A stretch of DNA of 64,000 nt, from contig NC_045144.1 in the NCBI RefSeq assembly GCF_008831285.2, positions 20,287,716-20,351,715 on the forward strand, given 5' to 3'. Every line of letters begins with the position of its first letter. Within the stretch, counting starts at the first letter, position 1. Below are positions 2,110 to 40,747 of this stretch, piece after piece. The notes beneath the pieces were generated by a model. It was not told the DNA's origin. It saw nothing but the letters and a program-made list of their open reading frames with translations, and did no database searches. The stretch comes from Nymphaea colorata (Eukaryota > Streptophyta > Magnoliopsida > Nymphaeales > Nymphaeaceae). Made by a program: the position numbers and the translations under genes.

Positions 2110-5035
2110 TTAATCTTCATCCAATGAAGTAGAGTCATCTTCTTCATTGGTTCTACTTGGTCCGCATTCTTCATCATCTTCTTCTTCTAAATCTGAAGAC
2201 AACCCAACCTCTAAATTTTCTGCTTCTGGAAATGGATTCACATGGTCAATATAGATTCGATCTGCATTTATGTTTGCCATTTCTGCAGCCATGCTTTGCA
2301 AATGCATGTTCATTCTAATGAATACCAAATCAGTTACTCTAGATGGTAAAAGATTGCTTCTCTTCTTTGTATGAACAGCTTCAAATGCACTCCAATTTCT
2401 TTCGCAAGCTGATGCACTGCATGGCTGGCTTAAAATTTTGATTGCTACTCTTTGAAGAATAGGAACAGAACATCCACATATCAACCACCAAACACCTAAC
2501 ATAATTTAAAGAAACAAACAAACAAAATTGAGAATCATACAGTCGCAAATTTGTAATTAAAACATTTAACCAATCATCAACAATTCAGAAAAAGTGAGAC
2601 ACTTACGTGGATGAGAAGTGTCAATAATATTCATGGATAGCTCACAACGAAATAATGATGGATGTCTGGTTTGATATTTGGCCAATTCAAGAGACATATT
2701 TGCACAATCCTCAGGAACAAGAAGTTTTTCTATTGCTAACTCCAAACCTTTCCGAACTTCATCATTCATCCTTACTTTATTATTCCAGAACAAATGAGGA
2801 TTTAGATAAGCTGCTGCGGCATATATGGGACTGTTCAAATTACGGTTCCATCTCTTGTCAATTATACTCCAATATGGCATATATTTTTCTCTCATGTTGT
2901 TGCATGCACTCTTGATAGTTTCTTTAGCTCTATCAAGTGCTTCATACAAATAGCCCATAGTGGCTCCTTCCCCATCTACCATCTTAAGTACTCTCACTAA
3001 TGGTTCAACAAACCTTATTATTTCTTTTCCCTTTCTCCAAAAATCTTCATTTTGAATGAGCCTTGTAAGTTCTTTTGCATCATTTTTTTCAGTGTTTTCA
3101 ACATGTCTCCAATCATTGGAGGCAACCATAAATTTCAGGCCCTCTTCTTGTTTTAAGATGGAATCCAAACAAATAAATTGAGAGGCAAATCTAGTCACAC
3201 CGGGCCTCCTCAACTCCTTTCCCTTTGTATAAGTTCTCATTATATCTAAAGCTTGTTGCTTATTATATAAGAACTTGACAGCCGGCCTTGCTTTGCACAT
3301 GATATTTTTCACATCTTCTAAACTATCAATGTCTTCAAGCATTAAGTCAATGCAATGGGCAGCACAAGATGTGGTAAAAATGTTTGGATATTTTCCTTCA
3401 AGAATACGTTTTGCTTTTCTATAATTGCTTCCATTATCAGTAACAATCTGTACAACATTGTTTGCCCCAATTTCTTCTATAGTTGGAGATAAAAAATCAA
3501 CTATAAATTCTGCACTTTTAGGGCCTTTTTCAACTTGACTTGCCTTCCAAAATACGGTGCCAGTTGGAGAGCTCACCAACAAGTTTATATAGAACCTGCT
3601 TCTAATCGTGTCTTTCCAAATATCAGACATAATTGTGCATCCAGATTCTGTCCATGTTTTCTTCATTTCATCAACATATACTAGAGCATCTTTTCTTGCT
3701 TCATCTAGTAGTTTCAGAGCTCGGGAGAATGTACCCTGGTCCAAAGTTTGTAGCAGCAGCAACAAAATTTTTGAAATCCACTGATTGAAGCAAGTTGAAA
3801 GGCAAGTTATTCATTACAATACCTTTCAGTAGAAGCTTATCCACAAAATCTTTTTCTACTTTTTTCATCATGCCTGGAATTGTTTGTTGTTGGCCTTGTC
3901 CTGTTCCTCCCTCAGACAAAGTTCCACAAAAAAAATTGCTGCCTGAAGATGATGAACCTACACTTGAATGTGATTCACTTCCACTTTGCATTCTCCCCTT
4001 CTTCATGGGTCTGTCAGAAATAACTCCACAAGCTATGATTGCCCTTTGCTTGACATTTTCAGGCACATTAGGACATGGAGCAGCATCATTGCCATGAAGT
4101 CCAGCCAAATGATACTTAAATCGTGTAATTCCTCCGGCATATTGCTCAGAACAAAATTCACAAATCAACTTCCCATCATCGCTTTGAGTTGCATGTGACC
4201 AAAACATGTCCTTCCCTCTAGGCATTTTATGCAGCTGTCAAGTATCAAACAACTGAGGTCCTGAAGCCATAAAATCTGACCGTCATTTCAGCGACATACA
4301 ATTGCCTAAGCACATACGCGAATCGACTGAAAACAAAACTATTCCACAAAGCAAGAAACGTACAAACTACAAAGTTTAACAGCGATAGACAATTGCTTAA
4401 ACACATATGCAAATAGACTGAAACAAGAGGTATATAGTATAAACTATAAACTATAAAGTAGACGACCAACAGACGTATGCAAATTGAGTGAAAACAAAAA
4501 CTTGAAACTAATCGATCGAAAACAAAAAAAAAAAAATTAGAAACTAACGGACGTAAACAAAAAGTCAAAATGTCCAACGCACATATGAAAATGGACTAAA
4601 AATCTAACGGAAAGCCTACCTGAGCACGAGAGCGTGGTCGGATGTAGCAGTCGGAGGTCTACACGGTGCCGGAAAGCTGTCGAAGGTCTGCACGGTGCCG
4701 GAAACTGCAACTCGACACAAAAAAGAAGACGCCGGTCTGCTCCGCCGGAGAATTTGATGTCGGAAACCTCGCCCGAAATCGGAAATCCCCGGGATTTCAC
4801 CGTTCCCAAATCTGAAAACCCTAAACTCTAAAAACTCGTCCGCCCCCTTCTGTCGAAGAACTCTATAAATGCTGCCGAAAGCTTTGAACCTTTACGTTTT
4901 ATTCCTTTTTTACTTAACTACCATTTAAAAGTTTCCAAAATTACAGATGATGCCACCTGCGAAATACAAATTGCCTTTAGACGCGAAAATACGCGTTTTT
5001 TTTTTGTTTTAGACATAATTTTTATTTTTGTCATG
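2040..5035 (-). mobile_element. hAT-family DNA transposon, first copy (full-length but defective)
   Basis: The body carries a BED zinc finger, a DUF659/transposase core and a C-terminal hAT dimerisation region in the usual order on the minus strand. The 5' leader (4226-4610) holds four copies of a motif like CATATGCAAATNGACTGAAA spaced 70-105 bp apart, resembling subterminal transposase-binding repeats. A 27-bp unit around GGTCTRCACGGTGCCGGAAA is duplicated at about 4651-4710; the second hAT copy has it once. Outer ends are approximate: terminal inverted repeats and 8-bp target duplications were not found. The right boundary is set by where similarity with the second copy (near 13220) fades, just after a GACGCGAAAATA-like string. 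Confidence 0.8.
2110..4225 (-). pseudogene. hAT transposase gene (BED finger, DUF659, hAT dimerisation domain), frameshifted
   Basis: Exon 1 begins at ATG 4225. Its first 45 residues form a BED-type finger with C22, C25, H39 and H44. Around 3710-3700 the frame breaks: compared with both versions of this site in the second hAT copy, 14 bases between two GAAA tracts are missing, so the reading stops at 3701 while the transposase core continues in another frame (3765-2607). The core carries the catalytic-type strings SDIWKD and VTDNGSNYRKA and the CAAHCIDLMLEDI region. An intron with a GTAAGT donor after 2607 and an acceptor before 2495 leads to the last exon (2110-2495), which has the hAT dimerisation signature ACERNWSAFE and an acidic tail. 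Domain order and total length fit plant hAT transposases. The deletion makes a functional product unlikely. Confidence 0.88.
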
Positions 5036-7391
5036 CAGCTGCTTTTGGAATTTGTACAGAACGTTATAGGTGGTCACCAAAAAGACTTTTAAGAAGAATA
5101 TCATGTCCCTTTATAAAATTTTGAGACTATCCGTTTAATCTTTTTAAAATGCAATATATTAAAATTTTAAAATAGATCACTTGATTGTTACTTTGGCATG
5201 TAAAATAGAAGTACTAGGCGAAATTGTTGACTATGAAATTCAATCGCGAGTGAGTTCATTGAAGAAATAAAAGAAAATTGTTCTCTTTATTTTTTCTTAT
5301 TGTAATAAGTTGGTATATTGCATAAAAAGGGTACAAAACATAGATTAGGCTTTCTTCTAAGGTTCCACCTGCCTACGCCTCAAAGTGTCTTGTGAACTTT
5401 CGTGGCAATGAATCTTTAGGTGATGTCCAGAACTGGATGAAGTTCTGGCTCTGTCATGAATGGAAAGAACAGAGTTGACATGCAGAATCCAAAGTGATTT
5501 TTTAATTATTTTCTTCAATCAGACGACAACTTAATGAGCTTCAAAGGCTACATGATAATTTATTGGCTTCTGGTCTGTTAAATAGCTAAGGTACTGTGGG
5601 ATGTCCGGAAGGGTATTTTGGAAAGTTGATTTAATTCTATATTTATTTGTTCCATGTAAAAGAGATGAAACAGCTCGAAAAGTCATCCTTTAATGTGTAA
5701 ACCTTTGAATTTATTGATCAAAGTTCAGCATTCCCAATCTGCCAATAGACCAAAGTGATCAGATGGATTTAGACTTGAATATTATAGAGAATAAATATCG
5801 TTGCATGATAGATTATGCATTTTGTCCATGAAAAAACCAGTTGGCTTTGTAGGCTGCATAAAATTTGTTGGCATTTGAATACAAACTCTTAGGCTTTGAT
5901 GGCTTGATGGTGCAGAAGTTCTGAGCATCCACCTATGACAGGAAACCTTGCAAATATTCACACTACCCCCTTGAGAAAACCCTTCAAATCATCATTCACC
6001 TGAGAGATCTGGTGCATGTTGGAACACTAATGTCTAATAAGGAATTTACAGGTACTCTGTTCACCTTGAAAATATATGAGCAGTTCCGTAGTATGGCAAA
6101 TCATATTCTCAAGATCTGAGATCCCCATCATCCATTTTCATCATGGATGTTTGCCGTTATTAGCGTGGGTGCTGCATTTGGAGGCCGCACCATTGATGTT
6201 CGGAATGGCTGGATGAGACCATCCTACAAACAAACTTCATCTCCAAGCATGAGAACTGGTAGCTGACCATATAACGGTGTTGGGAATGGGTGGATGAGAC
6301 CAACCTACCAGATTTGCTCTTGTAGCTTCATCTCCAAGCATGAAAACAGGTAGCTGTCTATAAAACAGGTAGCTGTCTATAATTTTTTACCTGCTACATG
6401 CAAGGCATCACACTTCATAATCGGATTCATGTCATCTTATCAACGCAAATAAGAAAGAACTCGTTAATGGAGAAACTCCAAAACCTGAATTGCAGAAAGC
6501 AGAACCAGCAGGACGCAAATTGACCACGAAAAGATGGGCATCACCTTGACCTTGGGCTGTCTTCATCAACTGCATCTACCATTAGTTGTGAAGAAGCATA
6601 TATCTTTGTCAAGTTCTCAATTATGTAACCAGGATATTCAACGTCGAGTCATGTTCAATCTCCTTACAGAAATTGTGCTAGAAACTCCAATGAAGATGAC
6701 CGTGTTCTTATATCTTCTGCCGTACCGACATCTTGCGCCCTCTAATGATGCTCAACTAATTTGGCTTCCCTAAAAAAGAAGAAAATCCGTTTTGTTTCTT
6801 TTCCACGAATATGGAACAAATTTTAAACTCGGGTTGAAAGAAACTGATAAAAACGTGATTTACTTTCATATGGATGTGTTTACTTTTTTCATTTCATAAT
6901 CATCGGCTTCTGAACATGGCATCTACCGTCCCAGGGTGGTGGTAAAGCAGATGCCAGTCATGGCGATTAAACGAATTTCAGAATTGCATTTCCCCTTTTG
7001 TGACTCGTTCAGCTAAATAACTAACTTTATCTACGCGGGCGTGCACGCGCGCGCGCGAGAGAGAGAGAGAGAGTAAAAATCATACCCTGACCTTTTAATA
7101 ATGCAAAACGAACATGAGAAAATATACATGATTTTAGCTGTTATAATTGCGTTTAGCATTAGATTTACATGTAAAAATGGAATCATGCCTTCCAATGTGC
7201 CCTGACAATGTGGGGTATCTGCTCATGAATTCTCATCATAACAATAAGAATTGAAGATGATCTTCATTCACATGGTCAACTCAGCCGGTATTTTGTTTAT
7301 GTCGAGATTCAGTCAGAAAGAGTACCAAGAATGAGATTAGCCTGCACTAGATGGACAAGTTCGTACTAATAATCATCTACATTTTGTTTGC
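5036..7391. other. Intergenic flank within the left duplication unit
   Basis: No gene is supported. The segment 5384-7391 is the downstream flank of the duplicated gene end and matches 14356-16091. It holds a degenerate direct repeat of about 85 bp at 6190-6360 built on GGATGAGACCAWCCTAC and CATCTCCAAGCATGARAAC. It also holds a (GC)n/(GA)n tract at 7045-7071. The block 6567-6955 has no counterpart in the right copy. I found no recognisable product for it on either strand. Confidence 0.6.
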
Positions 7392-10300
7392 CTACAGCTT
7401 GTAGTCCAAACCAGCACCATACTTCCAACCTTCTAGTTGCCTTCGCCATGTAAATCTTGCCTTGCTTGGAAGTTTTGTCTATCCATGGCCTACAAAAGAA
7501 GTTTATGCAACTCCTCGTGTGATGCTACACTTTTCAGTCAAAGATGAGAAGATTATCTGAAATGCCAAGTTTACATCACAATGGGGTCCGGCGAAGTTGA
7601 AAGAAATGTATAGTAACCAAGGAATGTAAAATGAACTAACCAATCAAGAATTACTGGAATGCCAACCTGCATCGAAAGAGAAAGGCGCCTCAAACCAGCT
7701 GCAGAACACAGATCAATATATACGAAACAAAAGAATAAGCTTCCAACAAAATAGTAGAGTAAAAGTGACCCTTGTCCAAACAAAATTGAAGGGGATCCTA
7801 AAACAGCCGAAAGAGAACTAAAGCCTTCAAAGATTCAAAGATGCCAAAATGTTTCTGTAGGTTATAACTCTCTAATGAGTGAAAATCAGAGTAAACGCTC
7901 ATGTTTAGCATGGGGAAAGCACTAGAATGAAAGCACTCTTAAAATATTTATTAGCTACGAGTCAATGTCGGAAGTAGGAAACCAACTAATCACTTCCAAA
8001 ACCTGCTTGCTGCTTGTTATGGGAAAACATGCAGCGGAGGACCAACTTCTTAACATAATTTTTGCTGAATTTTAATATGCTTACATGGTTGATCAATTGT
8101 ATGTAATAGAAAGATTCAAATCTGTCGGATGCCAGGGTTGCCAGATGGTTAAAATTTTAACGCTGAAAATATCATAAACCATTGCTAAAAGTACCTTGAA
8201 TCATTGCTTGCACTATAAACCATCACTAATACTCCTATGGTGGCTGCATTTCCGTTTCAACTTTAGGCTTTTTATTGTTTGATCTGTACTACATGTCATC
8301 CATACATTAAAATAACATGATTTAGTATTGGTCCATAGGTTTTCTAGTAATGACCATGTTCTTACTCATTTCCATGAAAAATAAGAAAGAAACTATTTTT
8401 TCAGAGGGAAGATGCTTTATTATATTTATTTTCTGGCAACCTATTGTTAACATTGTTATATTTCCCAAACTTATATTCTAAAGTCATTTTAGCAATAAAA
8501 ACATGATATTTTCAAAACATTGCCGATGATTGTGACTATCATTGAGACAAAGTTTTGAAATATATTTAATGTTATGGAGTTTGAAATTTTTATAGTTCTA
8601 AAAGAAATTTTCAAAATTTCTTTACTGAGGTTTTATCAGATGCAGCAGTGGCAGAACTAGGTGTGGGCTTCATGCAGCCCTATATAATTTAGTTTATTCA
8701 CATATCGTTTCTTCTAAACAATTTAGTTTATGGCATATTAGCTCCCTACAAATCTAAAACTTCTTATATCAGTGTTCCTCAGTCACATATTTCTAGCTTC
8801 AACAGTCAGTTGCAGGCACGGATTGGAGGGGATCATTGGTACTACAATTGGATAAAGGACTCACTGAGATTCATATTAAATGAATCGCTTAATCTGGCTG
8901 CCAAAAAGACATAAAGAGTGGAAGTAGGGTTGAATGTACTCGCACAGGGGATGGAGCTTTACCTTAAAAATAGTTGAATTTAACAGCACTGGCCCATCCT
9001 TCATGTTGTATGGTCCAAGCCTATTAATAATTTGTAAAAATACTCCTTTTCAATTTGTTATTGTTGGCGCTCAGTATCCCAAGCACTTTCTTCTTTGGGT
9101 TGAACAAAGGAAACCTCAACCTAAAGGTGGGCAAAGCCACCATGTTATTCGGCATACTTGGAAAAGTTTTTCCTTTTTGAATATTTTGTGGTAAAATTGT
9201 TTTCTCCTGAAATCTCAGGAATTCAAAAAATTAAATATATATAAGAATATTACAACACATTGTGGAAGATTAATAATTTTTGACCTTTTTTTACAAACAT
9301 ATTGACAAAATTTACAATAGTTTTTAAAATCTTAAAATAAAAAAATGAAACATATAATACATCGAAAAAGTTTTCTATAAAAAAGGAAAATATCATGCTA
9401 ACATCAGGAAATATCTTTTGGCAACATGTTGACAAAATAACAAGCTTCATCCATTAAAACATTTCACGCAGTTTTGGTGATAAAAACACAATTTTTCCAA
9501 AACATCGGTGATATTTTATGACTATGATACTCACATATAGTTTATCTTCTTGTTGCAAGCTAGCTATTCTCCTAGATTACACTTTTGTGAAGATAACTTT
9601 TCTTACATATTTTTTAATTCCATGAAATAGTATACATAAGCATTCGAGCTCTTTTGAAGGGATCAATGATTTTTGTGCTCTTGGAAAAGGTAAAACAATA
9701 ATTTTATGGAAAACGCTTTTCAAAATTGGAAAGATTATACTCATTTTGGAAACATGGTAGTTAGGTGCAATTTCAGAAATAGGTAGGCTAACATTGCAAA
9801 TTATCTTAAAAAACTTAAAACACTTGATTTTGGCAGTCGTTATGAAAATTTGACAGACATTTTTTCTTTCCTTTTACATTCTCATGAACTGGAGTTGGAG
9901 CAGCGGTCTTTTTAAATGGGAAAGGATCAAAGGAAGAGGCAAAACAAAGATAGAAGTTAGGGCAGGCACTCTCAAACTGAGGGTAGGAACTGCCTGGTCT
10001 AGACATACGACATCCCTGTTCGGAGTTTGCAGTTCAGGCCCTTGGCACCCTAAGCCCAAAGAGGCTCCACTGCTGTATCGGTTTCATATCCTAAGATGGA
10101 CTAAAACATCCTGCTGGAAACTTTTCCTTTTACTGCACAGAGATGTTGCTAGATAGATCAATAAATTTTGATGTAAAAAGAGTTGAAACAACTGACAGAA
10201 GCTGGTCCCATGGCTTTGAAAAATAAACCCATACTGATTGGCTATAATTGAAAAATGAAAATTATTCAGAAAAAACGGTGATGAATTTCATAAAACAATC

Positions 10301-11433
10301 ACTGAAGGACCTTAATGATGATGAATTTCATAGGACGGTCACTGAAGGACCCTAAAGATGATAACAAAACTTAGTCGCATATATAGTTCATGGGTTTTTG
10401 CCACCGAGGTTTCCCTTGGGTATTAACAAAAAGTTTGTCATCTCATACTGCCCAAAAAATAAGACGCACAGAAAATAATTGGAAAGAAAAAAGAAATTAT
10501 CAGTTTTCTATTGATTTTCTTATAGGAACATTAATAAAAATCAAATAATTATTCCAAGCGTTAGAAGAGAAGAAAAAGATTCAAAATGTATTTTTAAAAT
10601 AATTCTACGATTTTCTGAAAATATGGGAAAAATGAGTTTTGGCAATATTTTCAAAAAGTTTGAGATAACTTTTTTAGGTAATACTGCAATATTTTTGAAA
10701 ATGCCATCAATGCTTGTCACCATGATAAAAACACAAAATTACCAAGCTCTGAAGGCAAAGAAGAAAGATGTGGTCCTGAATCAAGTTGGTCTTTTCTCGT
10801 TCAAGTCTCTTCATGAGAGCGAACGTCAAAAAGAGAAGTGGCAGCCATGGATCAAACCAAACATAAACAACTCTTCTATGGTTTTAGCTGTAACAGAAAT
10901 TCTAAGGACAACAACTGGGACAAAAATGAATATTGCAAGAGTTACCTGCTTGAAAATAGATGGAAGAATTTGTGGATGGCTTAGCACAATAGTTCCTAAT
11001 GTCTTTGCCAGTGGCCAAAACTGGACCACGTCCTGTAAAAAATCATAAGAAGAAGATTCTTGACTTATAATTTTCTCAAAAGAAGCAAGTTTTTAATGAA
11101 ATAAGTGACACTTTAAGATATTGACAATTTTCTGTGCATACAAGTACCTGCAGAAATGGACTAAGAACTGCATCCCCCAGTTTCTGCGTGAAATTTAAGA
11201 AAGACAACAAGTATCAAAGTAATCACAAAAACGAAGTTCCAACAAAACGCAAACTGGCTGAAAGGCTTCACAAGTTCAGCCAGAAAAGAAACTGAAATTC
11301 AATATGGGTATGTTGAAACCTTCATCGACTGGAAATTGACATAGAGAAGTTCATTTATGAAGTCAGAAGACACATTGGCATCTGACTGTGCTGACATTGC
11401 TCTTTGAAAAAGCCAAGACGAGCTCAAATTTGG
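7392..11433 (-). pseudogene. Truncated duplicate of the cyclase-like gene (copies of exons 14-18)
   Basis: Five exons of the gene at 16092-33173 are repeated here in the same order: exon 14' 11320-11433, exon 15' 11148-11183, exon 16' 10946-11032, exon 17' 7575-7666 and exon 18' 7392-7489. Exons 14'-17' keep open frames and splice sites. Exon 15' changes LGDPVLRPFLQ to LGDAVLSPFLQ. The last base of exon 17' is changed (donor AT|GTAAAC instead of AG|GTAAAC), replacing Arg by Met. Exon 18' has one extra T near 7471-7476, which shifts the frame and destroys the conserved GAGLDYKL ending. Exons 1-13 and a promoter are absent: similarity stops at 11488, where hAT sequence begins. It is therefore a 3' gene fragment left by tandem duplication. 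It could still serve as an alternative distal 3' end of the intact gene's transcript. Confidence 0.87.
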
Positions 11434-11490
11434 CTGCAAGAAACAGTTCAGACTGGAAATGATAATTCAAGCATCAAAGAAAGGAATACC

Positions 11491-13220
11491 AGTTTATATA
11501 GGATCCGCTTTTAATCGTGTCTTTCCAAATGCCAGACATAATTGTGCATCCACATTGTGTCCATGTTTTCTTCATTTCATCAACGTATAATAGAACAGCT
11601 GTCTTTGCTTCATCTAGTAGTTTCGTTCTTGTTGATTAGTTAACATTTTTTTTTGTGGAACTTCGTCTCAAGGAGGAACATAACAAGGCCAAAAAAAAAC
11701 AATTTCAGACATAATGAAGAAAGTGAAAAAAGATTTTGTGGATAAGTTTCTACTTAAAGCTATTGGAATGAATAACTTACCTTTCAACTTACTTCGATCA
11801 GTAGATTTCAAAAATTTTGTTGCTAGTGCTATAAACTTTGGCCCAAGATATATTCTCTCAAGCTCTGAAATAACAAGAACGAAACTACTAGATGAAGCAA
11901 AGAAAGATGTTCTATTGTATCTTGAATAATAGAACAACTTTTTTTACTTCATTTAGTATTTTCTTTCTTGTTGTTTAAGAGCTTGAGAGAATATATCATA
12001 CACCAAAGTTTCTAACACCATCAATAAAATTCTTGAAATTCACTAATCCAAGTAAGTTAAGAAGTAAGTTATTCATTATAATAGCTTTAAGTAAAAACTT
12101 ATTCACAATTTCCACTTTCTTCATCATGCCTAAAATTTTTTGTTTTTTGCCTTGTCCTTTTTGTCCTTCTTCAGACCAAGTTCCACAAAAAAAAAATTGT
12201 TAGCTGCTACACTTAAATGTGATCCACTTCTACTTTGCATTCTCCCCTTCTTCATGGGTTTGTCCTCAATAACTCTACAAGCTTTAATTGTCATTTGCTT
12301 GGTACTTTCAGCCTTTCAGGCACATTACGACATGCAGCAACATCATTGCTGTGAATTCCAGCCAAATGATACTTAAATAGTGTAATTCCTCCGGTATATT
12401 GCTCAGAACAAAATTTGCAAGTCAACTTCCCTTCTTCACTTTGAATTGCATGTGACCAAAATATATCCTTCACTCTAGGCATTTTCTGCAGCAATCAAGT
12501 GTCAAACAACTAAGGTCCTGAAGCGATAAAATCTGACTCTCATTTCAGCGATAGACAATTGCTGAAGCACATATGCAAATCAACTGAAAACACAACTAAC
12601 AAAGTAACAAACAACAAAGTTTAACAGGGACAGACAATTGCTTAAGCACATATGCAAATCGACTGAAACAAGAGGTATAAACTATAAACTATAAACTATA
12701 AAGTAGCAAAATAGCAGCGTATGCAAATTGACTGAAAACAAAAACTTGAAACTAATCGATTGAAAACAAAAAACTAGAAACTGACGGACGTAAACAAAAA
12801 GTCACAATGTCCAACGCACATATGCAAATGGACTGAAAATCTAACGGAAATCCTACCTGAGCACGCAAGCGTGGTCGGATGTAGCTGTCGGAGGTCTGCA
12901 CGGTGCCGGAAACTGTAACTCGACGAAAAAAAGAAGACGCCCGCCTGCTCCGCGGAAACCTCGCCGGCAATCGAAAATCGCCTGGATTTAACGTTCCCCA
13001 AATCTGAAAACCTAAACCCTAAAAACTCGTCCGCCCGCTTTTGTCGAAGACTCGAAATGCTGCCGAAAGTTTTAAGTTTAACGTTTTATTATTTTTTACC
13101 CAAACTACCATTTAAAAATTTGAGAAATTACAGTTGATGCCACCGCCTGCAATAAAACTGCCTTCTTTAAAAAAGACGCGAAAATAGACGTTTTTTACGC
13201 GTTTTTTTCGTTTTGCCGTT
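11491..13220 (-). mobile_element. Second hAT copy: 5' part only, internally rearranged
   Basis: Similarity to the first hAT element starts abruptly at 11491 (matching 3582) and continues to the 5' end of the element. The 3' half of the transposase gene is therefore absent. It carries a BED-finger reading frame starting at 12482 that is soon frameshifted, and the same four leader repeats (12569-12590, 12647-12669, 12718-12740, 12817-12840). Its exon is disrupted by an inverted segment (about 11646-11920) coding MKKVKKDFVDKF on the plus strand, followed by the same region again in the normal direction. It cannot encode a transposase. Confidence 0.82.
11646..12196. repeat. ~270-bp inverted repeat inside the second hAT copy
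   Basis: The left arm (11646-about 11918) and right arm (about 11928-12196) are reverse complements of the same part of the transposase gene, from the GTTCCACAAAAAA string to the TTCATCTAG region. They are separated by about ten bases, with GTTCTATT facing AATAGAAC at the centre. By eye the arms match at roughly three quarters of positions, with small indels. A transcript across it would fold into a long imperfect hairpin. Confidence 0.78.
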
Positions 13221-14355
13221 TTTCCTGAGTCTTATTTTAGCTGGATAGAAGTGTTTTTGGGAGTCTCCTATATTGTCTTTCTTCCTTTTCTGTAGTTCGA
13301 AAAGCTTTTGTTGTTGCTAGAATGATTGTTTTTGGGGGGTGCAACTATCACATTTGCTTTTGCTGCCCACAAATTCCAAAACTTTCACGATCTAGCAATC
13401 TGTAAGTGCAACATATTATTACTGTTTAAGCAGCCAACTGTAATCTACATTACTAACCTTCCATTGTTCAGGCATGATTGCTGAAGTTTCTCATTTTGAC
13501 AGCAATCAAATGCTCTCTTCATATTATCTTAAGTTTAGATGAACGATACAGTGAGATTTGTTAAATAATCGGTCTGACAGTGTCCAGTTTCCATTACTCA
13601 AGGCTGAAATTTTGGAACATGAGAATAACCTGTATCTGGATATTGCACGTTCATGGGCATAATGACCATTTTCTAATGTAACTAATTATTGCATAATGAC
13701 CGTTAATTTCAGGTTGAGAGCATCTCGAAGCACGATACTTTTCATGGGCCGCATGGCGCCAGTGAAAAGCCTCTCATTAGGGAGCTTTCAAAAAGATATG
13801 GTCGGAGAGTTTCAGACTGAGGAGCATCAATATGATCCGTATAAGTTTAGGAAATAAGCCTAGAGCATAATATGTACAGAGAAACTTTATTCGTCCGGCC
13901 TTAAACATGCAAAGTGACTTATAATTGAAAAGAATGCAGAAGGATGTAAGATGATGTCTGTGGCCATCCCTTCACATTAACATTGCTATAGTAATAAAGT
14001 TCTTGAAAAACATGGTTATTGATTAATGTCATCTCATGGGTATTTTTGAAAGCTGTCCGGTTGTTTACCGCAGCGACATATTTATCAATTTTCTAACGAT
14101 GTTTTTCATCGAGAGAGGTAAAACCTTCGGAAAACAACTTAGAACATCTCAACTTTCTTAAATATGGGAAACAGTTTATGAGCATCAACTTGGATAATTC
14201 ACCAAAACCAAAATATTTTTTTATTTTTCTTGAATCAGATACATAATCCATTTTGATGTGCTTAAGCTGGCCGCTTGAATTGGACTGACTGAGCAGGTCA
14301 CTGTATTTTCATTATTCTGAAAGGAACAAGATGGTATTTGGGCCAGATAGGACTT
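13221..14355. other. Inter-copy stretch unique to the right duplication unit
   Basis: This 1.1 kb lies between the 5' end of the second hAT copy and the start of the long alignment with the left unit. The corresponding place in the left unit has only 0.35 kb of different sequence. It holds the orphan plus-strand exon at 13713-13820 and possibly a small upstream exon around 13294-13337 (reading RKAFVVARMIVFGG). An AATAAA-type string follows near 13992. Nothing else is recognisable. Confidence 0.55.
13713..13820 (+). pseudogene. Orphan terminal exon of an unidentified plant gene
   Basis: A pyrimidine-rich tract ending TTTCAG is followed by 35 codons and a TGA. The peptide includes HDTFHGPHGASEKPLIREL and ends RYGRRVSD. 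Its composition and clean acceptor look like a genuine last coding exon. A possible polyadenylation signal lies about 170 bp downstream. No matching upstream exons exist nearby: to the left is hAT sequence, apart from a possible short exon at 13294-13337. I do not recognise the protein. The exon is in convergent orientation to the cyclase-like gene. It may be the cut-off end of a neighbouring gene whose other exons lie left of this window. Confidence 0.45.
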
Positions 14356-15710
14356 AGTGTCTTGTGAACTTTCATGACAATGAATCTCTAGGTGATGTCC
14401 AGAACTGGATGAAGTTCTGGCTCTGTCATGAATGGAAAGAACAGAGTCGACCTGTAGAATCCAAAGTGATTTTTTTAATTATTCTTCAATCAAACAACTA
14501 TTTAATGAGTTTCAAAGGCTACATGATAATTTATTGGCTTCTGGTCTGTCAAATAGCTAAGGAACTGTGGGATGTCTAGAAGGGTATTTTGGAAAGTTGA
14601 TTTAATTCTATAATTTATTTGTTCCATGTAAAAGAGATGAAACAGCTCGAAAAGCCATCGTTTAATTGGTAAACCTTTGAATTTATTGATCAAAGCTCAG
14701 CATTCCCAATCTGCCAATAGATCAAACTGGCAAGATGGATTTAGACTTGAATATTATAGAGAATAAATATTATTGCATGATAGGTGATGCATTTTGTCCA
14801 TGAAAAAAACAGTTGGCTTTGTAGGCTGCATAAATTTGGTGGCACTTGAATACAAACTCTTAAGCTTTCATGGCTTGATGAAGCAGAAGTTCTAAGCATC
14901 CACGTATGACAGGGAACCTTGCAAATATTCAGACTACCCCCTTCAGAAAACTCTTCAAATCATCATTCACCTGAGAGACCTGGTGGACGTTGGAACATTA
15001 ATGTCTAATAAGGAATTTACAAGTACTCTGTTCACCTTGAAAAGATATGAGCAGTTCCATAGTATGGCAAATCATATTCTCAAGATCTGAGATCCCCATC
15101 ATCCCTTTTGATCATGGATGGTTGCCGTCATTAGCATGGGTGCTGTATCTGGAGGCTGCACCATTGATGTTCGAAATGGCTGGATGAGACCATCCTACCA
15201 TGTTTGCTCTTGTAACTTCATCTCGAAGCACGAGAACTGGTAGCTGGCTATAATGGTGTTAGGAATGGGTGGATGAGACCAAGCTACCAGATTTGCTCTT
15301 GTAGCTTCATCTCCAAGCATGAAAACAGGTAGATGTCCATAATTTTTTTACCTGCTACATGCAACGCATCACACATCATAATCAGATTCATGTCTTCTTA
15401 TCAATGCAAATAAGAAAGAACTCGTTAATGGAGAACTCCAAAACCTGAATTGCAGAAAGCAGAACCAGCCAGAAGTGTCGATTAATATATTTATGCTCTC
15501 GTGAGTCAAGAAGAAGATCAAGATCTTGTATATATGTTTGGACGCAAATTGACCATGAAAAGATAGACATCACTGACGTTGGACTGTCTTCATCAATAAA
15601 CGAATTCAGAATTGCATTTCCCCTCTTGTGACTCGTTTCCATGAAACTAATTTTCTTTCATATAGGCTCTTAGCCCGTCCAGCTAGATAACTAACTTTAT
15701 CTACTTGGAA

Positions 15711-15747
<37 letters not shown>

Positions 15748-16091
15748 GAGAGAGAGAGAGAGAGAGAGTAAAAATCATACCCTAACCTTTTAATAATGCA
15801 AAACGAACATGAGAAAATAGACATGATTTTAGCTGTTATAATTGCATTTAGCATGAGATTTACATTTAAAAAAGGAATCCTGCCTTCCAGTGTGCCCTGA
15901 CAATGTGGGCTATCTGTTCATGAATTCTAATCATAACAATAAGAATTGAAGATGATGATCTTCATTCACATGGTCAACTCAGCCGGTGTATTGGTTATGT
16001 CGAGATTCAGTCAGAATGTACCAACCAAGAAAGAGATTAACCTGCACCAGATGGACAAGTTCGTACTTATTATCATCTACATTTTGTCTGC

Positions 16092-19000
16092 CTACAGCTT
16101 GTAATCCAAACCAGCGCCATACTTCCAAGCTTCTAGTCGCCTTCGCCATGTAAATCTTGGCTTGCTTGGAAGTTTGTCTATCCATGGCCTACAAAAGAAA
16201 TTTATGCAACTGCTCATGTTATACTACAATTTTCATTGTCAAAGATGAGAAGATTATCTGAAATGCCAGGTTTACCTCACAATGGGGTCCAGCGAAGTTG
16301 AAAGAAATGTATAGTAACCAAGGAATGTAAAATGAACTAACCAATCAAGAATTACTGGAATCCCAACCTGCATCATATCAGAAAGGAGCTTTAAACCAGC
16401 TGCAGAACATGGATCAATATATACAAAACAAAAGAATAAGCTTCCAACAAAATAGTAGAGTAAAAGTGACCCTTGTCCAAACAAAATTGAAGGGGATCCT
16501 AAAACAGCCGAAAGAGAACTAAAGCCTTCAAAGATTCAAAGATGGCAAAATGTTTCTGTAGGTTATAACCCTCTAATGAGTGAAAATCAGAGTAAACGCT
16601 CATATTCAGCATGGGGAAAGCACTAGAATGAAAGCACTCTCAAAATATTTATTCGCTACGAGCCAATGTTGGAAGGAGGAAACTAACTAATCACTTCCAA
16701 AACCTGCTTGCTGCTTGTTATGGGAAAACGTGCAGCGGAGGACCAACTTCTTAACATAATTTTTGCTGAATTTTAATATGCTTACATGGTTGATTAATTG
16801 TATGTAATAGAAAGATTCAAATCTGACGGATGCCAGGGTTGCCAGATGGTTAAATTTTTAACGCTAAAAATATCATAAACCATTGCTAAAAGTACCTTGA
16901 ATCATTGCTGCACTATAAACCATCACTAATACTCCTATGGTGGCTGCATTTCCGTTTCAACTTTAGGCTTTTTATTGTTTGATCTGTACTACATGTCATC
17001 CATACATTAAAATAACATGATTTAGTATTGGTCCATAGGTTTTCTAGTAATGACCATGTTCTTACTCATTTCCATGAAAAATAAGAAAGAAACTATTTTT
17101 TCAGAGGGAAGATGCTTTATTATATTTATTTTCTGGCAACCTATTGTTAACATTGTTATATTTCCCAAACTTATATTCTAAAGTCATTTTAGTAATAAAA
17201 ACATGATATTTTCAAAACATTGCCGACTATCATTGAGACAAAGTTTTGAAATATATTTAATGTTATGGAGTTTGAAATTTTTGAAGTTCTAAAAGAAATT
17301 TTCAAAATTTCTCTACTGATGTTTTATCAGTTGCAGCAGTGGCAGAACTAGGTGTGGGCAGCTGCCCATGCAGACCTATATAATTTAGTTTATTCACATA
17401 TCGTTTCTTCTTAACAATTTAGTTTATTGCATATTAGCTCCCTACAAATCTAAAATTTCTTATATCAGTGTTCCTCAGTCACATATTTCTAGCTTCAACA
17501 GTCAGTTGCAGGCACGGATTGGAGAGGATCATTGGTACTTCATTGGTACTACAATTGGATAAAGGACTCACTGAGATTCATATTAAAGGAATCGCTTAAT
17601 CTGGCTGCCAAAAAGACATAAAGAGTGGAAGTAGGGTTGACTGTACTCGCACAGGGGTGGAGCTTTACCTGAAAAATAGTTGAATTTAACAGCACTGGCC
17701 CATCCTTCATGTTGTATGGTCCAAGCCTATTAATAATTTGTAAAAATACTCCTTTTCAATTTGTTATTATTGGCGCTCAGTATCCCAAGCACTTTCTTCT
17801 TTGGGTTGAACAAAGGAAACCCTCAACCTAAAGGTGGGCAAAGCCACCATGTTATTCGGCATACTTGGAAAAGTTTTTTTTTTTAATATTTTGTGGTAAA
17901 ATTGTTTTCTCCTGAAATCTCAGGAATTCAAGAAATTAAATATGTATAAGAATATTAGAACATATTGTGGAAGATTAATAATTTTCGACTTTTTTACAAA
18001 CATATTGACAAAATTTACAATAGTTTTTAAAATCTTAAATAAAAAAAATGAAACATATAATACATCGAAAAAGTTTTCTATACAAAAGGAAAATAACGTG
18101 CTAACATCAAGAAATATCTTTTGGCAACATGTTGACAAAATAACAAGCTTCATCCATTAAAACATTTCATGCAGTTTGGTGATAAAAACACAATTTTTCC
18201 AAAACATCGGTGATATTTTATGACTATGATATTCACATATAGTTTATCTTCTTGATGCAAGCTAGCTATTCTCCTAGATTACACTTGTGCGCAGATGATT
18301 TTTCTTACATATTTTTTCATTCCATGAAATTGTATACATAAGCATTCGAGCTCTTTTGAAGTGATCAATAATTTTTGTGCTCTTGGAAAAGGTAAAACAA
18401 TAATTTTATGGAAAATGATTTTCAAGATTAGAAAGATTATACCCATTTTGGAAACATGGTAATTAGGTGAATTTTCAGAAAAAGGTAGCTAACATTGAAA
18501 ATTATCTTAAAAAATTTAAACACCTGATTTTGGCAATTGTTATGAAAATTTGACAGACATTTTTCTTTTCTTTTACATTCTCATGAGCTGGAGTTGGAGC
18601 TCCGTTCCTTTTTGAATGCGAAAGGATCAAAGGAAGAGGCAAAACAAAGATAGAAGTTAGGGCAGGCACTCTCAAATTGAGGGTGGGAACTGCCTGGTCT
18701 AGACATACGTCATCCTATGTTCAGAGTTTGCAGTTCAGGCCTTTGCCACCCTAAGCCGAAAGAGGCTCCACTGCTATATCGGTTTCATATCCTAAGATGG
18801 ACAAAAACATCCTCCTGGAAACTTTTTCTTTTACTGCACAGAGATGTTACTAGATAGATCAATAAATTTTGATGTAAAAAGAGTTGAAACAACAGACACA
18901 AGCTGGTCCCATGGCTTTGAAAAATAAACCCATACTGATTGGCTATAATTGAAAAATGAAAAATTATTCAGAAAAAATGGTGATGAATTTCATAAAACAA

Positions 19001-22000
19001 TCACTGAAAGACCCTAATGATGATGAATTTCATAGAACGGTCACTGAAGGACCCTAAAGATGATAAAAAACCTTAGTCGCATATATAGTTCTTGGGTTTT
19101 TGCCACCAAGGTTTCCCTTGGGTATTAACAAAAAGCTTGTCATCTCATATAGTCATATTACCCAAAAAAAAACAAAACAAAACAAAAACGTACAGAAAAT
19201 AATTTGAAAAAAAAGGAAAATATCGTTTTCCTACTGATTTTCTTACAGGAACATTAATAAAAAAACAAATAATTATTCCAAGCATCAGGAGAGAAAAAAA
19301 TTCGAAATGTATTTTTAAAATGATTCTATGATCTTGTGAAAATATGGGAAAAATCAGTTTCCGCAATATTTTCAAAAAGTATGTGATAATTTTTTTGGGT
19401 AATACTGCAATATTTTGAAAATGCCATCAATGCTTGTCATCATGATAAAAACACAAAACTACCAAGCTATCTTAAGGCAAAGAAGAAAGATGTGATCCTG
19501 AATCAAGTTGGTCTTTTCTCGTTCAAGTCTCCTCATGGAAGCAAACGTCAAAAAGAGAAGTGGCAGCTATGGATCAAACCAGACGTAAACAACTCTTCTA
19601 CGGTTTTACCTGTAACAGAAATTCTAAGGACAACAACTGGGACAAAAATGAATATTGCTAAAGTTACCTGCTTGAAAATAGATGGAAGAATTTGTGGTTG
19701 GCTAAGCACAATAGTTCCTAATGTCTTTGCCAGTGGCCAAAACTGGACCACGTCCTGTCAAAAAATCATAACAAGAAGATTCTTGACTTTTAATTTTCTC
19801 AAAAGGGGTCAGTTCTTGATTAAATAAGTAACATTTAAGATCTTGACAATTTTCTGTGGATACAAGTACCTGCAGAAATGGACGAAGAACTGGATCCCCC
19901 AGTTTCTGTGTGAAGTTTAAGAAAGACAACAAGTATCAATGTAATCAGAAAAACGAAGTTTCAACAAAATGAAACTGGCTGAAAGGCTTCACAAGTTCAG
20001 CCAGAAAAGAAACTGAAATTCAATCTGGGAATGTTGAAACCTTCATCGACTGGAAATTGACATAGAGAAGTTCATTTACGAAGTCGGGCGACACATTGGC
20101 ATCTGACTGTGCTGACATTGCTCTTTGAAAAAGCCAAGATGAGCTCAAATTTGGCTGCAAGAAACAGTTCAGACTGGAAATGATAATTCAAGCATCAAAG
20201 AAAGGAATATCTACAAACCAAAGTAGGATGTTACAAACCATATATGGATTCAACAGTGATAAACTGGCCTCATCCAAGAAATCACCATCTAATGCTTCAT
20301 AAATACCTTATGAAAAAACAATTACAATGAATTACCAGAGGCGCAACAACAAATGCACGGGGCAAGAAAGCTGCATGATTCTAAGCAAAATTCTGTTATC
20401 ATCTTACCATATGCTATGTATAATACATCAGATACAGAAAGGAAATGGAAATTTTAGTTCTGAAGAAATTTATTATCATGATACAAAACAAGAATTGCAT
20501 GTGAATAAGAGAAACAATGAGCAAACATAAAGCTCAAGTTCCCTGGATTCGTTATAAACTGATTTTATAATCAAAACTTTATAATGGCATAGAGATCTAT
20601 CTACTAAGTGATACCAGATGCAAGTCTGTTGAGGTTCCGAGTAATGCTACCAAAACCACCAAAGGAGACTGGAGACTGTATGCCACTAGCATCACCAACC
20701 TGAAAAAATAGCAATATCAAGAGCTAAGAATCAAGCATCAAGTAACATTACATGGCCGCTAAGTAACAGCTGAACTAAGCATTGACTTAGTGGACACAAG
20801 AATATTACAAATCAAGTGAATCCAATTATGTCAATGTGTCTGGCAGAATAAAGACCAATACAGACAATAGCTAGGATCTAAAACATATTCACGAGGACAA
20901 GATTTCAGTTCATGCATCATGCACAGATGAGCTTTTCAAGCTTCTTAAACTTGACATAGCTAATGTATAATCATACACATCTTACCTGCAATATACGACT
21001 GAATGGTGTTTGAAGTGGACTGCTGAGACGTATTTCCCATGCCAAAAGACAATACCCAGAAAGTCATAATCAAGTGCAAAAAAGGTAAATAAAAGATGTC
21101 AACTTGAAAATGTGCATATGTTCAATTGAGAACTGAATTGATGCTAGTATCGTCTGATGATTTGAAGTTATTTATGAATATAAAAGATATTGATCCTTAC
21201 ACATTATTTAGGATTTAACTGAAAGCATCTCATTTCTTTAAAATAAATGTGTGTGAATGGCAGAGTTGATGCTAGCTTCCAAAACAATACAAAACAAAAT
21301 TATTTATATCCCTTTCCAAGCAAAGAAAGAAAGAAGTTTCTCCACATTGATGGCAAAGAATCAGAAGACGAAGCCTGATGCCAAATTCTGTAGTCAAGTT
21401 GCATAGAAAGAAAAGATTCAGCATAAAATTGTGAACATTCTTCTCTAGTGAAGTAGTGCCTAGCTCAATCTAAAGTTGGTCCCTCATCTAAAAGAAATTC
21501 AAACTTAAGACCTCAGATAGACTACCAAGTATCAACCATGCCAAATCAGGATCAAGTAAGTTTTTTCACATAATTAGAGCTAACACCACAGCCAACAGTT
21601 ATATGAAAAACAGCGATGCAAAAGCAATCTGATGGTTTTCTAAAAGATCATGCAGCAGAACATAGAATGAAAGACAACCATCTAGCAGCCATGACTGCAA
21701 AGAAAAAAAATATCAGAAACAAAAAATAGGATAATGATATTTGCCTAAATGGTGAAGCATCTTCTAGTAGGAGTGTGGGGGGAGGAGGGGAAGCAACGGA
21801 AGCAAAACAGTGGAGCTATAGTAATGATCTTACATGCAAGTTCACATTGAAAGGAAGGAAAAAAGAAGAAACTCAGGCCATGACAAGCAAAATTTGTCTT
21901 TTAAGAGGAAGCACATGATAATGATTTTGTATCTGAAATCAAACAAAATAAAAATCAGCGAAATTGAGATTTTACCAAGATCAACAATATATGTTTATCA

Positions 22001-25000
22001 TTAATCTAAATTACTACCAATAATTCATGCATAGATGTTTCCTGAGAGTCCGAACTATTATCAATAATTTGTCATTGGGCAAAATTTTTAATACGGAATT
22101 TTAAGAGAAAAAATTAAATATGCTTCAACATCGAGCAAATGATAGAAAAATTAGGATACACAATATAAGAAGTAAAGAAACTTTTTCATGTAAATAAGAA
22201 AAGAAAGCAAAAAAATTAAGTGATTATTCATTAACAGACTCACAATTCACGAAATGGCATCCAAAGTTTTGGAAACAGTGTAAATGTCACCAAGTGGAAA
22301 CTTAGCAAGGATGCTATCTGCATGAATAATATAAAAGGAGGTAAATCTAAAACTTGGTTTTTGATGTTGAATGAATCCACACCTGTCCCGGTAAGTAGGA
22401 AAAATCCCAAAAATGACTCTCAATATTTCAATATCCTCAATACCTTCTCCCTGGAACAAAAAAGATATCAATGATAACAGAACATAAAAGATACAATTTC
22501 ATTATTTTTAGAAACTTGAACAAAAATGTGGAGATATGATCCCACGAAAATTAGCAGCATATTATCTCTCAACGTGACATACGATCTAAATAAAATGATA
22601 CAAATGTAAATCATTGTGAAAAAATTTATAAGTTCCAACGCAAAACAATAGAATGAAGAGGATTGAGGAACAACTGTGAGCACAACATTGTAGAACTTTT
22701 AGAGTTGAATGCTCCCAAGTTTATGGGAGAGTATTTTAAGTGATTTGCATGAATTTTTGCGACTAATGATGAGAAAAATGTGACAATATGAATCATTGCA
22801 GTGAAATAACTAAATTTCACCAATCCTAGGATTGCACATTTATTGATGGTTCATGCGAGAAGTGTAACTATTACATATGATTTCAATATTTGGTTGATAA
22901 ATGCTGAACTAATAAGCGCTGCTGCTGTCATTAGTTCGTAGAAAAAGAGCTTTACATGGTTAAAATCAGAAGAGCCACATGAGAGAAAATATTCTGTCAC
23001 ATGAATGTCATAACATGAATCGTATGTCAAAGGAACCTGAGCTTCTTTTTTTTTCTTCATCATCACCAGAATTAATTGCTTATACTGGTGTTGATTGGGG
23101 AGGAGATATAGACATTCAACAATTGGTTTTTGTGTCTTTTAGAAGAATCTCTCATATTAAGGAGATGCAAAAAGCAAAAAAAAAAAAAAGGTTTCTTCTT
23201 CTGCAAAGGCAAAATATAGACCATTGGCTTCTACAACAATGGAAGTTGTCTGGCTTAGGCAACTATTTGAAACATAGAGTACACCTGAAACTACACGCAA
23301 GATTATATTGTGAAATAAGGGCTTGATTTATATAGTCTGGAATCATACTTAATGAGCAGACAGAACAAATAGAGATGGATCACCACTTTGTCAAGCAAAA
23401 GCATTTGAGGAAGTCCTAATAATAGACATTTAACAACTGGTTTTGTATCTTTTAGGATATTCTCTCATACCATGGAAATCCAAGAAGCAACATTTTTTTT
23501 TAAAAAAATCTTCTATAGACATCAAATGTAAAGCATAGACTTCTGCAGCAGTGGAAATCACGTGGCTCAGGCAACTATTGGAATATATGGGAGTACACCT
23601 GAAACTACCCACCAGATTATGTTGTGACCATAGGGGCTTGATTTATAAAGTCTGAAATTGTACCTTAAATGAGTGGACTTAACATATGGAGATGGATTAT
23701 CATGCCAGAGAAGTATTTGAAGAACACAATCCATTTACCTTGATCTATTTTATGTGGCTTCAGAGTTTCAAATTGCAGAATACATTAGTATTCTACATTC
23801 CTTAAATTTCTCCTTAACTGTTGGAGTACATATCTCAATAGTCAATAATATACCTACATATATTGTTAGCTAGCCAACGGACAGCTGGCCTGCTCCTTGT
23901 GTATATATTGAGGAGAATTCTCCCCCTTTTGCTCATTGTTTTCTTCAGTTATTCTTCTTTGAATAATATTCACTTTTTCATTTCTTAACTGTGCATTCGT
24001 GCACATTGTGAGTTTTGTCTGTTGAGGTTCTTTTCAAACTTGAAATTATTGATTTGAGCTACTTAGCGCATTAATGCTGGCTGGTTTAGGGTCTTAAGCA
24101 ACCAGTTAGTAGCTTAGCTGATTCACAGAAGATTCATACTGAGAAAAGAATGGAGCATGAAAAGCTCAATGGGTTCATATATATTTGACATAACCTTTAG
24201 GCAGAAAGAGAGGTGCTATATAATTTCAAACACCGTTTCAATATATAATGAGTGATCTATATAGTAAAATCAAATTAGAGGAATACTAATTTACTTGATA
24301 AGTTGGCATCAAATCCCAGTAATCTTCAAGTAGCTGCTCCAGAGTAGGGCATCCTGGTTTTGGATCAAGGTAAGTAAACATGTAAGTTGTCCGATCTCTA
24401 GGGCCAGAACCAGCTGGAAATGCCTGCAGAAAACAGTGGAAATATTAATCACAGAAAAGTTAAATAGGATTTGTCAACACATGAATTTTTGTGTCTCTGG
24501 TCAAGAAACTCAAGAACTGAACTCTAAAGCACGCTAAGTCAGCTCAGATCAGTCAATTCCAGAATTATGATAACAATATTGTTCAGGTTAGCTTTCCCCA
24601 TTTTTTAACTTCAACTAAGTGAGGTCAAAAGCTGATGAGCACCTACTGTAGTATTCTCTAACTTGCTTCCTAGTTTGTACTTTGTATCAAATTGCATCCA
24701 GAAAATGCGACAAACCAGGATACAAGGCAGCATGAGGTCAATAGACACCAATATTTCTCTAACATCTTCATAATAAGACTATTCCCAAGTCATTCTGAAT
24801 GCACGGGATGTTGCAGTTTTCCTCCTTAAGGAAAGCAACCTTGAATATTGGACCTAGGTCCAACAATGAACATGGCCCTGGCACCGACTATAACAACCAA
24901 ACCAAAACAGACGTCAGCACCAACTTCTAGCAGATTCAAAAATCACCCCATAGCTAGCTTCAACTTAGCAGCCATAAAGAACTATGAACCAAGAAGATTA

Positions 25001-28000
25001 TAAGGCATCATGAGGCTGAAGTGCATGTGGTCACAGATATTTCTGGAGAACTTAAATAATTTAGATACTCTAAAAATAGTACCAATAGATGAGATTTACA
25101 CAGACAAAAATGTAGAATATAGGTGGATTAGGCACTTTTCGTGATCTTCTCAGAAGTGCGAACTTTGAACTATGGTTGCCTTCAGCAGGGCCTCCTGGTA
25201 AAAAACCAGCTGTTGGATTTTTCTTTCACATTTTTGTGTGTGAGAAAATTGATTGTTTTGATTCTTAAGTATTTATGACATTCTGACTTACAATAATTCA
25301 GCATCTAAAACATATTTGTGTACCAAAATTAAGTGATTCAAGAGTTACTTCCTCTAACGCCAATTGGCAATTCTCTTGACAAACTGAGCAGCTGATGAAA
25401 ACAGTCAGTGTCATGTGTGTGTGTGTGTATTGCATGCGCACTTGAAACATAATGTTGTCAACATTTTTTGCTTCCATCAAACTTGTGGATGTGATCTTCA
25501 TAGTTTATTTACTAAAAGTTATGCCTTCCACTAGATTGCATGCATGGAACATAGTTGCAAAGATATATTTGAGTTCAAGAGAGGCAAAATCTTGTAATAT
25601 TAAAGGCATTCTAACAAATCTTAGAATCTAAGAGAATTGAGAAAAGAAAAAAATTAGGAGAAAACAAGAAGATGAGCAATTTATTGAGCAAATAAACAAG
25701 AATGTCATGAGAATATTGTGACAATATGGTAAGACATACACAATTCTCAATATTTTCACTATTGTATTAAAATTTCATTGTCATCATTCTTGTCAAAACC
25801 TTGCAAATTGAACTCACAATAGTTTCAAAAGCTTGGTGATGTCCACTGCCTAGGAGCCTCATATCATATGGTTTTTCAGCAACCAAAAGGATGTGTCAAA
25901 AATGTGATGAAATAAATAAATAAATAAATAAAGATATATATATATATAGTTTTTCTTGTTAATGGATCTAACTCAAAGCATTTTTCCTTTAGTAAAGGCA
26001 ATAAAGAATAGATATCTGCATCAAAGAATGAAGACAGGGAACTTTGTTTATGGAAGAGTGTGGGACGGTCCCCTCTTGCAGATGTGAAGTTATGAACCAC
26101 TCTAGGCATTTATGAGTATTACTAAAAATTTCCTCTATTATCTTATCTGCACTTCTCTGAGCACCTGACTATCGGGTGAGTATGGCATTCTGTGATTTAT
26201 CAGATTTTTTGTTCTTAGGCATATTGTTAAGGATTGTATTCTTAAAAGAAGCATCAGATAGCATACGATGACTAAGACAACCACGAACCATTGCGCAATA
26301 CGATACATTCACAAGCACCACAGTGCTGTTATATCCGTAAGGCAAGTTTAATTTCCTACACACAGTCCTCAGAGCAAATTTTAGGTATTCAAACATAAGC
26401 AACCTGAATTTAATAAGAACATATGGTCCTATGGAGTAAAGACGTGCTTTTCAGTTAAACCACACATTCTCAAGTTTACCCATCCAGCAGCCATGACGAA
26501 ACGCAATATTAGATGAAGAATCACAATTACAATCTTGCCTTCTAAAAATGTGCAACTAATCAAAGTTGAGATTATAAGGAAAGTAGATGACAAACCTCCC
26601 AAAAGTATTGCAACTTTGACTTGCCAATTGTTCTTATGGAAGAGCTGCTGAAAATAACATCGCTTGTTTTGTTATTCTTGAAGCCACGAGAGCAAGATCC
26701 AACTACAAGACAAACACCATCTGGTTTCTTTCCGGAACGCACCTGCCCAACAAAACAAAGAGGAAACTTGGAAAAAGACAACCAAAAGAAAGCATTTCAT
26801 GTCCAGAAGGTATACATGCATGCTAGGATGTCTTTCCATATGCAAACTTTTCTGAAAAATCCAATATTTTAATGCCCAAATGAAACCAGCTGTCATGGTA
26901 TGCTTCACATCACAAATCATCTAAGTAACATATATTCATCCCATACATGAATTTTCAGTAAATCTGGATAGATACTATGATGCATAAAATAGAATAAATT
27001 AAAGACATGCTTTACCTGCTTCACTATTGGGGAAAAATTCCCCATGGCATCAACAAGAAGACGTGCAGAAAGGAATTCTGCTTCTGAAAAATTAATAAGC
27101 TGGAATATGAAAGGATAGAACAGTAAGAATTAGTATGCAATAGGTCAAGTTTATTCACGCAAGACAACAAATAAAACAAAATTTGGGCACAGATTATATG
27201 GGTTGCTGAATGATAAAAAAGTGGTGGAAAATACATTTCAGATATGAAGAGAATACAAATGACATCTCTAACGAAAAGAAGCTTGATCACAAGCTCAAGA
27301 ATTACTCCAAAACAAGGAATACACTCATAAAAGGATGGTTCACAAAAAAAATTGATGCTCAATAATCATGCACTTGTGAAATAGCACAAAAAAACAACCT
27401 TAGAAAAATAACCTTTGTTGATCTCACAGTACGCCAAAAACACATGCAAAATATGCTGGCTTAAGGCTCTTATTTATGCCACAAGAAGGCCAAGAAGAAG
27501 AGAGCGACCCACTGTTAGCTAATCCAGATGCCTAGTTCAGTGACTAGCTATCATGATACTAAAGTGCACCCTCTACCTAAAAGGAAAAAAAAAATAGATA
27601 AGCAAAAGTACAGAAATAATTATACGCTTATAAGTGTGTGTAATGCAAGCATAGCATATATACATATTACATAGTGCATAGCAATAAATAGTGTATAAAT
27701 TTATAATGCATATTGAAACATGCATATACTTTCTCAAAATACAAAATTCCCTTTGCCATAAAACAATGCATCTTCATACCAGAATGCAGCATTTTTTAGG
27801 TCTCAAAAGAGGCCCCAACATACTTCCTCAGTTGCCACATCATACGTCTCTATAAGAACTTCAAAACAGCTTATTGACTCATACAGTGACATTTTAAAGT
27901 CACAAATCATCTGCCTCATAACATAATATCCCAGTTTAAGCCCCATTAGTTGGGAAAGAATCCAGTTAGAAGTGCTCAAACCACATTTTTGCAACAAAAT

Positions 28001-38791: not shown

Positions 38792-38834
<43 letters not shown>

Positions 38835-40681: not shown

Positions 40682-40747
<66 letters not shown>
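40682..40747. repeat. (TA)n microsatellite
   Basis: About 33 uninterrupted TA units lie here. Shorter tracts lie at 38678-38700, 38794-38834, 38901-38922 and 40598-40617. Confidence 0.95.

Follow-up and report, generated by a model that had tools for sequence, protein, structure and literature searches.

Gene content of the locus

The 64,000-nucleotide stretch of Nymphaea colorata DNA analysed here (NC_045144.1, positions 20,287,716 to 20,351,715 of the forward strand; below, the window) contains a flavoprotein gene, a truncated copy of its last five exons and two segments of a hAT transposon, which are arranged as a direct tandem repeat. All of them are located on the minus strand.

The whole gene occupies positions 16092..33173; it is open in all exons read, with a putative ATG near 33173 and the stop at 16092. 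Its last five exons (20041-20154, 19870-19905, 19668-19754, 16276-16367, and 16092-16188) read through in frame to this stop. Homologues were searched for in a collection of bacteria and archaea: 506 stretches matched the search pattern, 499 of them encode a relative, and the best 80 of these 499 were kept, all 80 with titles that read as cyanobacteria. Five of the 80 loci served as queries for exon alignment within the window, and two of these alignments were printed. Collinear exon matches between ~29,989 and 16,101 account for most of residues 10-471 of one cyanobacterial protein. The exon alignment search left residues 88-102 and 139-147 without separate matches, and a motif search placed an exon for the first of these gaps near 29,526. 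The start of the putative N-terminal exon is near 33,173. When the exon-joined protein was compared with cyanobacterial genomes, the best locus showed 47% identity in its best segment and covered query residues 20-481, i.e., was nearly full-length. The Pfam DAO match lies below the curated cut-off (21.2 vs 27.9 bits), and the match to an NCBIfam lycopene cyclase family is weak (16.3 vs 209.5 bits); thus, the gene is named here only as a cyanobacterial-type FAD oxidoreductase. Its product is presumably located in the plastid. A direct repeat of ~170 bp (23212-23380 and 23524-23697, 78% alike in the self-BLAST) lies within an intron of the whole gene.

The gene fragment (7392..11433) consists of the last five exons only (11320-11433, 11148-11183, 10946-11032, 7575-7666, and 7392-7489). 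The splice AG/GT dinucleotides are kept; the last exon has a +1 frameshift. The fragment differs from the right-hand exons at 17 of 426 exon positions, distributed over the three codon positions as 5, 4 and 8. The initial annotation had claimed that the full gene was spared by the rearrangement and is completed by the right copy, and the open right-hand exons bear this out. The right copy keeps the whole gene because the upstream exons lie outside the duplicated unit.

The left hAT transposase gene (2110..4225) has one short spliceable intron and encodes a BED finger, DUF659, and a C-terminal dimerisation domain. The matches to these Pfam domains in three frames of the left copy (PF02892, 6e-06; PF04937, 5.9e-45; PF05699, 2.5e-12) place the element among the hAT transposons. 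A short frameshifting deletion near 3715 is absent from all three pieces on the right-hand side. The right, partial hAT (11488..13205) extends from mid-transposase to approximately the 5' end of the element, this end being the point where the alignment stops. The search for terminal inverted repeats gave best scores of 24 and 23, under the maxima of 38 and 30 reached in 100 shuffles, and no convincing terminal pair was found among 25 inverted-repeat pairs listed of 144.

The right hAT segment includes an inverted duplication of transposase coding sequence. It runs in the direct orientation from 11488 to ~11638, is inverted at ~11644-11925, and is direct again from 11926. The inverted arm (11644..11925) corresponds to the left copy from 3938 back to ~3664, and the direct arm (11926..12205) corresponds to 3671-3945, all boundaries being approximate. 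The two arms of ~275 bp are separated by an 11-base loop and differ at 43 of 269 aligned positions, with 25 additional gap columns. The fold of the minus strand has an energy of −296 kcal/mol, compared with a mean of −122.7 (sd 6.4) for 20 shuffles; that of the plus strand is −274.8 kcal/mol, and 26 plus-strand control windows of equal length reach −174.5 at the lowest. Selection for hairpin pairing received no support from the 43 mismatches, 16 of which are G-U in one strand and 10 in the other.

Layout of the duplicated unit and its joint

A self-BLAST of the whole window revealed a pair of collinear direct repeats, 3579-11488 and 11488-20209, which confirms the two-copy tandem structure proposed in the initial annotation. 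The left copy of the unit (3582..11488) comprises the hAT from its middle to its 5' end, a spacer, a shared flank, five gene exons, and a partial intron; the right copy occupies 11491..20209. All main matches are direct. Those in the hAT part (81-88%) pair 3579-3715 with 11488-11624 (88%), 3704-4680 with 11966-12916 (83%), and 4675-4977 with 12883-13164 (81%). Those in the flank and gene (90-93%) pair 5384-6509 with 14356-15469 (90%) and 7057-11488 with 15752-20209 (93%, E = 0). The same order of parts in both copies, as had been described, was indeed found; the correspondence is interrupted, however, by the spacers, which are dissimilar beyond short matches. Likewise, the hAT parts, taken to be collinear, are direct throughout except in the right-hand segment with its direct, inverted and direct pieces.

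The left spacer (5013..5383, ~370 bp) separates the hAT end from the shared flank and has only short matches in the window (E of 0.067 or more). The right spacer (13206..14355, ~1,150 bp) has no similarity to it, and no similarity of either spacer to sequence elsewhere in the window was found beyond short matches. In the right spacer, an AG is followed by what looks like coding sequence for 35 residues (13713-13817). It could be the terminal exon of a different gene, and it matched 0 Pfam families. A segment of 398 bp (6570-6967) is present in the left copy only; it has just short matches in the window (E of 0.06 or more), and no target duplication is visible. The dissimilar spacers, the inverted duplication in the right hAT, the twofold hAT divergence and the probably converted intron tract, both described below, had no mention in the initial annotation.

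The homology to the left of 11488 stops where the hAT homology to the right of this position starts. In the new joint (11486..11492), intron sequence passes into mid-transposase sequence: a comparison with both parent sequences assigns the bases up to ~11487 to the gene, leaves ~2 bases clearly of neither parent, and assigns the following bases to the hAT, with no more than one base shared. The truncation of the hAT coincides with this joint. The description of the joint as a passage from intron straight to mid-transposase sequence with almost no shared bases is therefore accurate (0-1 bp shared, joint at 11488-11491). The breakpoint on the gene side falls in an intron of ~84 bp (20155 to ~20238), ahead of the fifth-from-last exon.

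Both outer edges of the repeat are continuous. At the left edge (3582) the transposase reads on, and the DUF659 match crosses it (frame 2566-3810, residues 33-175, from ~3714 down to 3286). At the right edge (20209), a single gapped alignment with a cyanobacterial homologue spans 20307-19861, introns included. One new joint and two old edges are the pattern expected after a single tandem duplication.

Other repeats in the window, also detected by self-BLAST, are a tandem pair of 196-bp units (54697-55085, 94% alike) and a tandem pair of 55-bp units (62806-62915, 98% alike). In addition, several long arrays with mutual matches in both orientations, which read as TA-type dinucleotide repeats, are located at 38792-38834, 40683-40747, 41231-41276, 57586-57700, and 61748-61857.

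Divergence between the two copies

The flank and gene segments outside a tract of low divergence differ by 5.9-7.2% each. The tract lies in an intron, at 8050..9533 in the left copy and 16751-18234 in the right one. Its copies differ at 36 of 1468 positions, compared with 262 of 3929 in the rest of the gene part (p = 1e-10), and from position 8166 there are 326 successive aligned columns free of substitutions (small gaps ignored), the longest run in 2000 permutations being 243. Judging by this pattern, the tract likely arose by gene conversion between the copies, the simplest of the possible causes, among which a conserved element of unknown kind would be another. A known structured RNA family was rejected as the cause, as a scan of the whole window against Rfam at the gathering thresholds gave 0 matches.

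The codon-position differences in the longest coding part of the hAT (3716-4222) are flat, namely 24, 30 and 22 of 163 each; those between the left copy and the inverted arm are also flat (10/74, 9/74, and 12/75), and the short DUF659 part shows 3, 9 and 4. A flat distribution would be expected of copies free of coding constraint as they diverged, unlike copies under such constraint inside an active family. The distances between the left copy, the direct arm and the inverted arm are nearly equal (54, 46, and 50 of 274), which fits one time of origin. In the counts of divergence, C/G loss, transversions and A-T changes given next, columns located within four bases of a gap were left out unless stated otherwise. 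The hAT divergence peaks in the arm (41/196). Sites at which C/G in the left copy faces A/T in the right one, and those of the opposite kind, number 29 and 6 within the arm, 19 and 6 over the ~290 bp beside it (3946-4237), 2 and 5 at 3579-3670, 15 and 14 at 4238-4660, and 12 and 8 at 4684-4960. Thus, the excess of C/G loss in the right copy is concentrated in and beside the hairpin, and the other hAT segments show little or no bias. Changes between A and T, a class that cytosine loss cannot cause, are not clearly more frequent in the hAT (11/636 vs 32/2256, p = 0.58).

Several observations weigh against one common origin of the hAT parts with the rest of the unit. The hAT copies differ in 148 of 1131 columns (13.1%), compared with 243 of 3709 (6.6%) in the flank and gene outside the tract of low divergence (p = 2e-11). 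Transversions are raised as well (67/1131 vs 102/3709, p = 2e-6), so that cytosine deamination explains the excess only in part. Outside the arm, the ratio of hAT divergence is still 1.75 (107/935), and the asymmetry of C/G loss outside the arms is weak (48 vs 33, p = 0.12). Without gap masking, the A-T class reaches 20/744 vs 38/2404 (p = 0.06), most of the excess coming from the 5' end segment (11/145); given the small counts, the A-T class is compatible with a 1.75-fold excess and would allow an older split of the hAT copies. Both arms carry A/T where the left copy has C/G at 14 sites, and the reverse is observed at three. This suggests that some decay had already taken place when the arms separated, or that the arms were converted by one another, and the fold-back may postdate the duplication. 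Finally, the dissimilar spacers require at least one further event, which could be a later replacement or switching during the event itself.

On balance, the divergence pattern favours one origin of both hAT copies, the right one having lost C/G faster; this is likely, though not proved. The initial annotation attributed both hAT copies and the gene fragment to a single tandem duplication. The one joint and the two continuous edges agree with this, and it is the common origin of the hAT copies that is less settled.

Origin of the duplication and the transposase hairpin

We consider a single tandem duplication of ~8 kb, produced by end-joining or template-switching repair, to be the best explanation of the locus and a quite probable one. 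What was found at the repeat, namely intact outer edges and a single new joint with at most one shared base, corresponds to such repair. A break or a stalled fork may have occurred in the middle of the hAT transposase gene, the other end lying in a short intron of the nearby flavoprotein gene. The ends would then have been joined with almost no shared bases, either through replicative template switching or through end joining after the sister chromatid had been copied. Near the joint, copying probably switched strands twice, giving the hAT piece its direct, inverted and direct order, and the inverted duplication beside the joint hints at an event more complex than a plain cut and join. The left fragment, severed from the promoter and start, would decay, and gene conversion may later have re-matched part of one intron. 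In the simplest view, methylation, either derived from the hairpin or directed to the transposon, would have raised the mutation rate of the right hAT, leading to the faster loss of C/G near the hairpin.

The duplication might instead include the flank and gene only (5384-11488 and 14356-20209), with the 2.9 kb between them (11489-14355) being break-repair filler that combines part of a different element of the hAT family, fold-back included, with an unrelated piece. We regard this as unlikely. It would account for the roughly twofold higher divergence of the hAT parts, transversions included, and for the dissimilar spacers. The 137 bp adjoining the joint also differ at 16 positions (p = 0.036 vs the rest); nevertheless, when the start of the arm is omitted, only 9 of the 92 hAT bases nearest to the joint differ. 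Plant breaks with complex filler copied from nearby sequence have been reported, but the filler sizes given in the cited part of that report are from 1 to 131 bp (PMC2686159), far under 2.9 kb. Moreover, two hAT 5' parts in the same orientation would have to lie beside the same flank start by chance, and the flat codon-position differences in the longest coding part also argue against a second family member as the source.

Reversed-ends transposition of a pair of hAT elements, as for Ac/fAc in maize, is highly improbable. The hAT sequence at the joint and the size of the direct duplication, ~8 kb, at the lower end of the range of 8157 bp to ~5.3 Mb given in the available part of one report (PMC3744419), would agree with it. 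However, in the cited accounts the breakpoint left by this mechanism carries an element terminus and 8-bp target duplications, and here the break cuts through transposase coding sequence, with the estimated 5' end of the hAT ~1.7 kb from the joint. With the break in the middle of the element and no terminus at the joint, this mechanism was rejected. There is equally little to be expected of unequal (non-allelic homologous) recombination between two hAT copies, one of which was lost later. Both units do carry hAT sequence; however, joints would be expected within shared homology, and the observed one connects intron with hAT with 0-1 bp shared, while self-BLAST found no hAT match at 20209. This candidate was rejected as well, given a joint without homology. 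The chance that two haplotypes of one locus were set in tandem during assembly seems very slight: the copies begin and finish in the middle of an element and of an intron, differ by several percent in each segment outside the tract of low divergence, and have separate indels and spacers.

A single tandem duplication by repair can be compared with known systems, within the portions of the reports cited here. In tandem duplications generated by reversed-ends transposition of Ac, the joint carries an element end and 8-bp target duplications (PMC3744419, PMC4270019); direct tandem duplication and hAT sequence at the joint are common to both cases, but the breakpoint is at the terminus there and mid-transposase here. 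In the maize p1/p2 chimeras, non-homologous repair with copied filler was described (PMC2686159). The p1/p2 cluster, as far as that account describes it, resembles the present locus in illegitimate joining inside an intron, pieces of genes, hAT elements in the cluster, and joint pieces copied from a template. The filler there is short, whereas here the hAT coding region itself is a breakpoint with an adjoining inverted duplication of ~280 bp.

The hairpin is most closely paralleled by Mu killer of maize, a rearranged MuDR whose transposase gene is in part duplicated in inverted orientation (PMC3440606). Both are rearranged incomplete transposons with a partial inverted transposase duplication and, on paper, can form hairpin RNA. 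However, Mu killer belongs to Mutator and has arms of ~1300 bp, whereas the arms of the hAT described here are ~275 bp. According to the same source, plants in which silencing is effective have short antisense transcripts whose start lies within the Mu killer locus and which are unable to form large hairpins, and a role of the longer hairpin transcripts was left only possible (PMC3440606). Thus, a hairpin structure alone proves no function. It is conceivable, although we hold it to be rather doubtful, that the inverted duplication in the right hAT makes or once made small RNAs against its own hAT family in the manner of Mu killer. Transcription would then enter on the 5' side of the hAT itself, cross the hairpin and continue in the direction of the gene fragment, and the C/G loss concentrated in and beside the hairpin would mark RNA-directed methylation.

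The locus shows at the level of single bases how a break within a short intron can let a partial gene duplication spare its parent, and how one rearrangement site can acquire a transposase hairpin. Present or past expression of the hairpin would make the locus a natural test of how inverted transposase duplications start silencing; otherwise, it is a clear yet ordinary example of genome rearrangement.

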